Of a DNA stretch of 9,178 nucleotides, positions 7,297 to 9,178 are shown one piece after another. Within the stretch, counting starts at the first letter, position 1; every line of letters begins with the position of its first letter. The notes under the pieces were generated by a model. That model was not told the origin of the DNA, did not search any database, and was given only the letters and a program-made list of their open reading frames with translations. This stretch comes from Flavobacteriales bacterium (lineage in GTDB: Bacteria; Bacteroidota; Bacteroidia; Flavobacteriales; JABDKJ01), in the NCBI GenBank assembly GCA_013002285.1, contig JABDKJ010000067.1, positions 1-9,178 of the forward strand. The letters run 5' to 3'. The translations under genes were made by a program, and so were the position numbers.

Positions 7297-7352
7297 AGAC
7301 ATGCCTCATAAAAGTCAACAAGATCTTCATGATCGCTTTGTGCTTTTCTAAT

Positions 7353-7360
7353 TATGTTTG
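7353..7360 (+). promoter_or_regulatory. Candidate -7 box of mnmE
   Basis: TATGTTTG is an exact match to TAnnTTTG and lies 4 bp before the preferred GTG start of mnmE at 7365. It would place the transcription start about at the GTG, implying a leaderless or nearly leaderless message. No good -33 element is seen at 19-21 bp upstream, so this is tentative. Confidence 0.3.
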
Positions 7361-7364
7361 CCAC

Positions 7365-8720
7365 GTGAATTTTAAAGACCCAAATGATACCATTATAGCC
7401 TTGGCTACAGGTGAGGCAGTTGCTGCTTTATCTCTGATCCGAATTTCAGGAAAGAACAGTATTCCAGTAGTTGATAAGATCTTCTCTAAAGATATTGTCA
7501 ATGCGAATAGTCACACATCACATTATGGCGAGATCATGGACGGGGACAAAACGCTGGATGAAAGTGTGATCTTTCTTTTTAAGGGGCCTTCATCATTCAC
7601 AGGAGAAGATGTTGTGGAGATCACATGCCATGGGTCTTCCTTCATTCGAAAGCGCATAATGGAAATTATTTTGGAACAAGGCGTGCGCTTAGCAGATCCT
7701 GGAGAATTCTCAATGCGGGCATTTTTAAACAGGAAAATGGACCTTTCACAAGCTGAATCAATTGCAGATCTTATTTATTCTGAAAATGAAAAACAACATG
7801 CTTTGGCCATGCACCAAATGAAAGGTGGGTTCAAGAATGAACTGGAATACTTACGTACGAAGCTCATTGATTTTGCCTCACTTATAGAATTGGAATTGGA
7901 CTTCTCTGAAGAAGATGTTGAGTTCGCCAATAGGGAAGACCTCGAACAATTGATCAAAGAGATATCTTTAAAACTCGATCAATTGATCGGTTCTTTTCAG
8001 CTTGGAAATGTGATCAAGAACGGAGTTTATACAGTGATCGCAGGAAGGCCGAACGCAGGTAAATCTACTTTGTTGAATGCGCTTTTGAATGAAGAAAGAG
8101 CTATCGTTTCAGACATACCTGGTACAACTAGAGATGTGATCGAAGACAGTATTCATATAGGTGGGATCAAATTCAGACTCTTGGATACTGCGGGTATTCG
8201 AGAAGCGACAGATAAAATAGAATCTATAGGAGTTCAAAAAACATTTGAATCCATTGAGAAAAGCTCCATTCTAATGTATGTCTTTGATCCATTAGAGCTA
8301 AACGAGGCAGAGCTTAAAAAGGACATTGCATACCTAAAATTCAAAGACGAAGAGGTCATTATTATCGCAAACAAATCGGACAAGAACAAAGTCTCTTTTC
8401 AAGATAGCAGAATGATCGAGATCTCTGCAAAAGAGGCAGACGGTATCGATAGGGTCAAGGAAGCAATGCTCCATAAAGTCCACGTCAAAGACATCAATAG
8501 AGGCGACTTTGTCGTAAGCAATCTTAGACATGTAGAAGCTCTCAAAAAAGCCAAACGATCGCTAGATGAAGTGGAAAAAGCAATGAGCAGAAATATTTCA
8601 GGTGACCTTTTGTCCATAGATATCCGAAAGGCATTGTTTCACATGGGAGAGATCACTGGTGAGATCTCCTCTGATGACCTTCTAGGAAATATCTTTGCCA
8701 ATTTCTGTATTGGGAAGTAA
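7365..8720 (+). CDS. mnmE: tRNA uridine-5-carboxymethylaminomethyl(34) synthesis GTPase MnmE
   Basis: With MnmG this GTPase builds the aminomethyl-type modification at wobble U34 of several tRNAs. From GTG 7365 it is 451 aa, close to the usual ~450-460. It has the N-terminal tetrahydrofolate-binding domain (NDTIIALAT, FTGEDVVEITCHGS), a helical domain, the inserted G domain and the C-terminal helix. G motifs in this numbering: GRPNAGKS (227-234), TTRD (254-257), DTAG (274-277) followed by the likely catalytic E280, NKSD (336-339), SAK (354-356). It ends in the conserved FCIGK with C448. The frame is also open to ATG 7329, but the added 12 residues (MIALCFSNYVCH) do not fit the family. One oddity: the glycine-rich loop usually like ATPxGxGA reads ATGEAVAA (14-21). 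The last codons form a possible phage/island attachment site. Tandem stops TAA TAA end the gene. Confidence 0.95.
   Translation: MNFKDPNDTIIALATGEAVAALSLIRISGKNSIPVVDKIFSKDIVNANSHTSHYGEIMDGDKTLDESVIFLFKGPSSFTGEDVVEITCHGSSFIRKRIMEIILEQGVRLADPGEFSMRAFLNRKMDLSQAESIADLIYSENEKQHALAMHQMKGGFKNELEYLRTKLIDFASLIELELDFSEEDVEFANREDLEQLIKEISLKLDQLIGSFQLGNVIKNGVYTVIAGRPNAGKSTLLNALLNEERAIVSDIPGTTRDVIEDSIHIGGIKFRLLDTAGIREATDKIESIGVQKTFESIEKSSILMYVFDPLELNEAELKKDIAYLKFKDEEVIIIANKSDKNKVSFQDSRMIEISAKEADGIDRVKEAMLHKVHVKDINRGDFVVSNLRHVEALKKAKRSLDEVEKAMSRNISGDLLSIDIRKALFHMGEITGEISSDDLLGNIFANFCIGK
8703..8720 (+). other. Candidate attachment site at the 3' end of mnmE
   Basis: The last 18 bp of mnmE, TTCTGTATTGGGAAGTAA, encode FCIGK-stop. 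From memory this is the same sequence as the 18-bp repeat flanking Salmonella genomic island 1, which integrates at the end of trmE (mnmE). Protein conservation explains much of the match, but third codon positions agree too. A recombinase-associated type of gene begins 217 bp downstream. The partner copy, expected at the far end of any element, lies outside the window, so the site is unproven. Confidence 0.4.
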
Positions 8721-8781: not shown

Positions 8782-8860
8782 TTATTTGTTGCCAAATAAC
8801 TCTTATTTGCGTATATTTGTTGCCTAACTGTTGCCAAGGCAACACGTTTGTTGCCCAAAC
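8782..8860 (+). repeat. Four GTTGCC sites, three within inverted repeats
   Basis: GTTGCC occurs at 8788, 8819, 8830 and 8850 (spacings 31, 11 and 20 bp, near 3, 1 and 2 helical turns). The first sits in TTATTTG-TTGC-CAAATAA (8782-8799), the third in TGTTGCC-AA-GGCAACA (8829-8844), the fourth in GTTTG-TTGCC-CAAAC (8846-8860). The first and second share the longer ATTTGTTGCC. The arrangement looks like a cluster of protein-binding sites on one face of the helix, probably for the regulator or recombinase of the downstream genes. A further ATTTGTTGCCC lies inside the next gene at 8988-8998. Confidence 0.7.
8789..8819 (+). promoter_or_regulatory. Candidate promoter of the Cys-rich HTH-type gene
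   Basis: TATATTTG at 8812-8819 is an exact TAnnTTTG -7 box. TTG at 8789-8791 lies 20 bp upstream, matching the spacing of the -33 element (GTTG, 3/4 of TTTG). Transcription would begin near 8825, leaving a leader of about 110 nt. The first GTTGCC repeat overlaps the -33 element and the second begins at the last base of the -7 box, so a protein bound to these sites would compete with RNA polymerase. Confidence 0.45.
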
Positions 8861-8867
8861 TCTATTT

Positions 8868-8901
8868 CTTATTGAGGTTGGCGAAATGATGCACCAATAA
8901 G
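8868..8901. repeat. Inverted repeat in the leader region
   Basis: CTTATTG (8868-8874) and CAATAAG (8895-8901) are exact reverse complements separated by 20 nt. In RNA this would be a modest 7-bp stem; in DNA it could be another binding site. The right arm joins the first two GCACC units of the 10-bp repeat array. Confidence 0.35.
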
Positions 8902-8935
8902 CACCATTCAGCAACAACGAGCAACATATAGCAAC
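8891..8935 (+). repeat. Five GCA(A/C)C direct repeats at exact 10-bp period
   Basis: GCACC at 8891 and 8901, then GCAAC at 8911, 8921 and 8931, all exactly 10 bp apart with unrelated 5-bp spacers; a degenerate GCGAA at 8881 may be a sixth unit. The last unit ends 2 nt before the ATG at 8938. GCAAC is the reverse complement of the core of the GTTGCC sites upstream, so one protein may bind both clusters in opposite orientation. The array lies in the probable 5' leader, so binding could act on DNA or on RNA around the start codon. Confidence 0.75.
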
Positions 8936-8937
8936 TA

Positions 8938-9178
8938 ATGAGCAGTAATATTAAAATACCAAAGTTTTGTCAGTATTGTGGACAGGCATTTGTTGCCCAG
9001 ACCACAACAACAAGGTATTGTTCTAAAACTTGCAACAGTAGACACTACAAGCAAAAGAAACGAGAAGAGAAAGTTCAAGCTGCCTTACAGCAAGAAATGA
9101 ACACACCTTCTCAAATGGAACAAATGCAAACTTTGCAAACCCTTCCAATTAAAGTTGGTAATCACGTAAACCTAAGAG
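8938..9178 (+). CDS. Cys-rich zinc-finger-like N-terminus of a putative HTH/excisionase-type protein (partial)
   Basis: ATG at 8938 opens a frame that runs off the window after 80 codons. An in-frame TAG at 8929-8931 excludes a longer start. The N-terminus MSSNIKIPKFCQYCGQAF, followed by RYCSKTCNSRHYKQKKREEK, has four cysteines (C11, C14, C28, C32) in a C-x2-C...C-x3-C pattern, plus H36, like a small zinc ribbon. A basic stretch then leads to a Q/M-rich linker (about 47-70). I recall this N-terminus from Bacteroidota proteins that carry a C-terminal excisionase-like helix-turn-helix and sit next to a site-specific integrase; the helix-turn-helix itself would lie beyond the window. The gene follows a repeat-rich control region and may regulate itself. 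The coding call is firm, the role inferred. Confidence 0.75.
   Translation, partial: MSSNIKIPKFCQYCGQAFVAQTTTTRYCSKTCNSRHYKQKKREEKVQAALQQEMNTPSQMEQMQTLQTLPIKVGNHVNLR

Follow-up and report, generated by a model that had tools for sequence, protein, structure and literature searches.

The closest described counterparts of the locus analysed here are the winged helix-turn-helix (wHTH) recombination directionality factors (RDFs), such as lambda Xis, phage 186 Apl, Pukovnik Xis, RdfS and P2 Cox, which are small proteins adjoining a tyrosine integrase. Published RDFs bind cooperatively to direct repeats that recur with every turn of the helix, and bend the DNA; their operators are reported to be weak and to be recognised flexibly, and Apl represses promoters as well (PMC7498355). 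RdfS is treated in PMC11963761. A similar wHTH of the HTH_17 type is found in BldC of the MerR-like regulators, which binds head to tail on direct repeats and contacts bases through the second and sixth residues of its recognition helix (Lys26 and Arg30 of helix 25-34; PMC5859096). Unlike the protein considered here, BldC is a developmental regulator without an integrase partner, and its crystallised site consists of 9-bp repeats. As to the site of insertion, SGI1 and other islands are tyrosine-integrase elements at the 3' end of trmE (PMC5704250); the likeness is drawn from the insertion site, and unlike the present element these islands are gammaproteobacterial. An article on Riemerella ICEs (PMC6491836) makes no mention of mnmE or trmE in its accessible part.

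The window, by which we mean the whole stretch of 9,178 nucleotides that was analysed (contig JABDKJ010000067.1 of a Flavobacteriales bacterium), has its closest relatives in Bacteroidota and, judged by the sequences of these relatives, contains attL, the integrase-side end, of an integrative element inserted at the 3' end of mnmE, the true start of which may lie a little downstream of position 7329 (Table 1). In the relatives the order, as far as it can be read from the DNA, is core, putative integrase arm sites, 10-bp array, zinc-finger/wHTH gene and tyrosine integrase; in L001, L005 and L030, for instance, the zinc-finger/wHTH gene lies between mnmE and the integrase gene. The window itself stops inside the wHTH gene, and its own element's integrase and far end lie beyond it. 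The FCIGK-stop end of mnmE was found by script in 38 of the 40 loci from named genomes, the other two being L008, where none was found, and L014, which offers too little sequence. By eye, L039 has the core alone with no mnmE sequence ahead of it, and the core-like sequence without a preceding mnmE in L008 and L039 suggests secondary insertion sites or rearrangement. The distance from the mnmE stop to the start of the HTH gene is 216-225 bp in 35 of 38 loci and 238, 243 and 249 bp in L030, L036 and L038, respectively. At least one match to the core TTYTGYATYGGNAARTA turned up in every one of 20 genomes searched, and in 11 of them the same contig carried it again 10-33 kb downstream. Ahead of the gene lies a match to the promoter consensus TTG-N-TATATTTG of the Bacteroidota type, which is matched in 47 of 111 loci vs 3 to 9 in ten shuffled sets. 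A further GTTGCC at window positions 8992-8997 lies inside the coding region, in a conserved AFVAQ segment, and is probably a coincidence. Behind the integrase of L001, at 6510-10239, are encoded a DUF6617 protein, two more HTH_17 proteins and a DUF3987/BT4734-like protein.

Table 1. Features at the attL end, in positions of the window
Feature	Position	Strand	Remark
mnmE (trmE/thdF)	7329..8720	+	TIGR00450, E 1.1e-119; 3' end is the insertion site
attL core repeat TTCTGTATTGGGAAGTA	8703..8719	+	codes FCIGK and the start of the stop codon
GTTGCC, candidate integrase arm-type site	8788..8793	+	
Bacteroidota-type promoter match TTG-N-TATATTTG	8789..8819	+	
GTTGCC, candidate arm-type site	8819..8824	+	
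GTTGCC, candidate arm-type site	8830..8835	+	11 bp after the 8819 site, the pitch of the attR pair
GGCAAC, inverted candidate arm-type site	8838..8843	-	
GTTGCC, candidate arm-type site	8850..8855	+	
GGCGAAAT, conserved element ahead of the array	8880-8887	+	recurs in relatives; candidate element
Five-unit GCA[AC]C 10-bp phased array	8891..8935	+	candidate binding array of the downstream wHTH protein
Start of zinc-finger/wHTH (HTH_17) excisionase-like gene	8938..9178	+	residues 1-80, zinc-finger part

An earlier note on this DNA had described five GCA(A/C)C pentamers at exactly 10 bp, and these are borne out: GCACC occurs at 8891 and 8901 and GCAAC at 8911, 8921 and 8931, the last pentamer ending 2 bp ahead of the ATG at 8938. 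When the whole window was shuffled 2000 times with dinucleotides preserved, evenly spaced GCA[AC]C runs at any period from 6 to 30 reached at most one unit in 1385 shuffles and two in 615, and none was longer, as against five in the window. A motif-free period-10 score has its window maximum at the array (10.7, vs at most 8.0 in 200 shuffled windows), and Tandem Repeats Finder counts only 2.7 copies (8891-8917) because the spacers diverge. A coding repeat is ruled out by a period of 10, which is not a multiple of three. What had been taken for a possible sixth unit at 8881 belongs to the separate element GGCGAAAT. A loose form of this element, G-N-G-A-R-A, precedes 55 of the 85 significant period-10 arrays of the family, a raw count for a short motif, and in 36 of the 55 it sits 9 or 10 bp ahead of the array start.

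The spacing is a property of the family. Relatives at E <= 1e-8 were found in 26 of 395, 50 of 370, 49 of 376, 68 of 395 and 78 of 393 genomes of partly overlapping sets; the resulting 188 loci, some present twice under two identifiers, were reduced to 177 with a full protein (11 dropped) and, by filters on 85% identity and on the 120 bp upstream that removed 66 more, to 111 non-redundant loci. An integrase homologue follows in 104 of these and mnmE precedes in 98. In a scan blind to the motif, 89 of the 111 beat all of their 200 shuffles, and among periods from 7 to 15 the top score fell on 10 bp in 94 of the 111 and in 85 of the 89 significant ones. A score of 8.5 with best period 10 was reached by 68 of the 111 array loci vs none of 253 control segments from elsewhere in the loci, and 2 of the 253 beat all their shuffles, of which there were 60 per control segment and 200 per array locus. 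The motif is not the same in all families of arrays, being GC[AT][AC]C, GNCAC, GATAC, GAAAC, GNCAG or TTGAC. Alignment of homologous loci, proposed in the earlier note as a check, thus gave a divided answer: the 10-bp period is kept, which supports its suggestion of selection for sites on one face of the DNA, but the GCAAC pentamer is often replaced by another motif. The array abuts the ATG in the window, but in relatives the end of the fifth unit lies a median of 5 bp and up to 172 bp upstream. In 22 of the 111 loci no array beat all shuffles; weak but visible arrays are present among these in L206, L156 and L167, and arrays are clearly absent from L091, L103, L109 and L150. L091 is a second copy of the HTH gene, and the gene is found in two copies about 1.1 kb apart in G285, G1332, G1414 and G1434. 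In L040 (5001 onwards, 56 aa) and L039 (28 aa) the HTH gene is broken or truncated and the array is kept. One scan of viral contigs gave no relative, and phage and plasmid records gave distant matches only, in 1 and 5 records, respectively.

Which protein would read the array is indicated by the way in which its motif varies. For this comparison we used the 85 arrays that were matched by 0 of 200 shuffles and had 10 as best period, minus L130 (a T-rich run), that is 84 loci; protein columns with more than 30% gaps or more than 95% of one letter were dropped, leaving 107, and the units were registered by a template that fixes positions 1, 4, 5 and 6 and leaves positions 2 and 3 free. Residue 99, in the recognition helix of the wHTH domain, has the highest excess mutual information of the 107 columns with both unit position 2 (0.47, next 0.28) and unit position 3 (0.48, next 0.16). 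Residue 98 is best for positions 5 (0.10) and 6 (0.23, next 0.18). The zinc-finger part is rejected as the main reader, none of its columns being first for any unit position, although its residues 17 and 10 equal residue 99 at position 4 (0.12). C stands at position 2 in 28 of 28 loci with W99 and in 3 of 56 others, and at position 3 in 29 of 31 loci with R99 and in 6 of 53 others. The proposed code reads GC[AT][AC]C for W99, GNCAC for R/K98-R99, GNCAG for E98-R99, GNCACTTA for I/V/T98-R99, GATAC for M or V99, GAAAC for T99 and TTGAC for Q99. All 28 W99 loci of the 111-locus set have a significant array, and P0001, which is identical to the window's protein over its 80 residues and complete at 131 amino acids, carries W at residue 99. 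In several loci of the M99 class (L120, L123, L132, L177, L225 and others) the first unit is GTTAC and the later ones are mostly GATAC, which may mean that the first position serves a separate purpose. The array of L227 (F99) has GCAAC and GATAC units side by side and may be an intermediate of motif switching.

Could this covariation reflect shared ancestry only, with residue 99 as a mere clade marker? Residue 99 is indeed strongly clustered on a tree built without the recognition helix (18 changes vs 44 in shuffles), in which 13 of 81 inner branches are well supported, and supported branches yield too few independent pairs for a significant result: two for W99, going the same way in 1.9, two for R99 (1.7 the same way) and one for M99 (0.7). 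For residue 98 and position 6, four such pairs gave an equivocal result, 1.3 the same way and 0.7 the other way. However, the other columns share the same relatedness, yet residue 99 comes first by a wide margin both within and between clades. The tree has two main clades (SH-aLRT 95), and among pairs drawn across them, which are not independent of each other, the dinucleotide at positions 2-3 is shared in 161 of 306 with the same residue 99 vs 59 of 1457 with different residues; here residue 99 is again first, of 110 columns (0.194, next 0.062). W99 occurs with its motif in both main clades (24 and 4 rows), and T99 is accompanied by GAAAC at three points in the best tree, though possibly from one origin. 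We therefore regard ancestry alone as a very unlikely cause of the covariation.

The code was also applied, with the rule fixed beforehand, to 60 further loci from the remaining matches of the same searches, which gave 55 non-redundant loci, 35 with a significant period-10 array and 27 to which the rule was applicable. It was right in 16 of the 27, compared with a mean of 4.1 and a maximum of 11 for permuted residues (0 of 5000 as good). By class it succeeded in 4 of 4 for W, 2 of 2 for M, 6 of 8 for T and 3 of 4 for I/V-R, and was weak for K/R-R99 (1 of 5), K99 (0 of 2) and Q99 (0 of 2); the R99 class was scored a little more strictly than the rule is worded, in that A-C was also demanded at positions 4-5, and L244 counts as right under the looser wording. 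One W99 locus of this set, L235, has no significant array. The code is real, but in the more divergent families it is incomplete.

The integrase has to be considered as an alternative reader of the array. In lambda attP the integrase arm sites stand in tandem, and the present units are direct repeats near an integrase gene and, in the window, the reverse complement of the GTTGC arm motif. This likeness is limited to some families: L028-L035 have GTTGC arms but a GACAC array. Moreover, the arm motifs are found at both element ends, the attR carrying two GTTGC, placed in 10 of 11 cases at -55 and -44 relative to the core and in one case at -56 and -45, with GTACC in place of GTTGC in L036, whereas no period-10 array beating all 100 shuffles was found at any of the 11 attR ends (in those of L005 and L012 only 1 of 100 shuffles scored as high at period 10). 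The two kinds of site also follow different proteins. In the 82 loci with an alignable integrase (303 integrase columns), the arm class, GTTGC in 39 and GTACC in 30 with 13 unclear loci left out, is best predicted by integrase residue 26 (0.92), then by residue 28 (0.88), which is R in all 30 GTACC loci; both lie within Arm-DNA-bind_5, the domain that in the L001 integrase is accompanied by SAM-like and catalytic domains. The best wHTH column for the arm class reaches 0.63, and residue 99 reaches 0.35. Conversely, array positions 2 and 3 are predicted at best with 0.27 and 0.25 by an integrase column vs 0.48 and 0.50 by wHTH residue 99. Hence GTTGC and GTACC, present at both att ends and tracking the arm domain, behave like lambda-type arm sites, unlike the array, which is present at attL only and follows wHTH residue 99 over the integrase columns. 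The array as a set of integrase arm sites is accordingly rejected on the GACAC families, the absence from attR and the dissociation from the integrase, and we give it very little probability.

Still less probable, to the point of being scarcely credible, is the reading as regularly spaced sites in the RNA leader that the earlier note had raised by comparison with TRAP, an RNA-binding protein that reads repeated triplets in RNA. In its favour, the array probably forms part of the transcript and runs up to the start codon, and the fold of the leader is slightly more stable than that of its shuffles (z -2.0; equalled by 8 of 200). However, the exact helical pitch and the covariation of the 10-bp units with a DNA-recognition helix point to DNA, arrays lying as much as 172 bp ahead of the ATG do not fit a leader array, and no Rfam match was obtained. 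As to a replication complex, which the note had mentioned too, nothing was found that points to replication.

The fold of the protein suggests what kind of DNA-binding protein this would be. HTH_17 was recognised above the cut-off at residues 84-128 of the equivalent L001 protein, and a structure model (mean pLDDT 81, pTM 0.39) has its recognition helix at 98-106. Pukovnik Xis was matched in a profile search (E 7e-6) and was the best match of the fold search (target-normalised TM 0.86 over 51 columns, Foldseek E 0.003), where no match had an E below 0.001; RdfS follows, and BldC, P2 Cox and Tn916 Xis (rank 35) come further down, among unrelated winged-helix proteins. By position in the helix, Lys26 and Arg30 of BldC would correspond to residues 99 and 103. 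Thus, a small winged-HTH of excisionase fold is encoded alongside a tyrosine integrase, which in the relatives lies beyond the point corresponding to the window's end, and next to arrays (89 of 111 loci) that the covariation assigns to it as putative binding sites. The connection with the encoded protein and with site-specific recombination that the earlier note had in view is supported. Unlike the described wHTH RDFs, this protein has an N-terminal zinc-finger-like part, its array is placed after the arm sites and just ahead of the start of its own gene, and its motif covaries with one helix residue across the phylum; its role in excision is putative.

Taken together, we consider it very probable, from the covariation of motif and protein, that the array is the binding site of the adjacent wHTH protein. 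The wHTH domain would read the array, with residue 99, which comes second in the recognition helix, setting unit positions 2-3 and residue 98 contributing at positions 5-6, and, going by its fold and by published relatives, monomers would line up head to tail, one per turn and on one face, cooperatively and with bending of the DNA.

What, then, would the bound protein do? By analogy with the known excisionases it probably acts as an RDF and would help the integrase to excise the element. A direct role of the array in the recombination complex is not obvious, because, viewed from the core, it is placed on the far side of the arm sites and is found at none of the 11 attR ends. Since the likely promoter is upstream of the array and the start codon downstream, we expect on balance that its occupancy represses the protein's own operon. 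It might even be argued that this is the whole function and that the wHTH protein is purely an autorepressor with no part in recombination, in favour of which speak the same position, the absence from attR and the precedent of BldC, a transcription regulator of similar fold. However, the gene is paired with an integrase in 104 of 111 loci, its best fold and profile matches are excisionases, and RDFs often do both jobs, as Apl does. We thus hold a purely operator function to be improbable, and a binding array of an excisionase-like protein that is probably also its operator to be a likely description of the locus as a whole.

RDF arrays of direct repeats spaced by one turn are already known; what is new is the family-wide readable code and the array that changes along with it. 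Among the matches listed in searches of open-licence papers, there was no description of the family or of the code. The window and its relatives outline a family of elements at the end of mnmE across the Bacteroidota, in which core, arm sites, array and integrase can be placed. Each genome shows five or six copies of the preferred site next to the gene, and the specificity of many natural orthologues can therefore be read without experiment, which provides a ready data set on wHTH-DNA recognition and on the joint change of a regulator and a whole array of its sites. It seems to us fairly likely that these elements carry a natural, readable code in which two helix residues set the motif and that all five or six repeats have been switched together several times. 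If the code is true, the change of a whole array in step with a single residue becomes testable.
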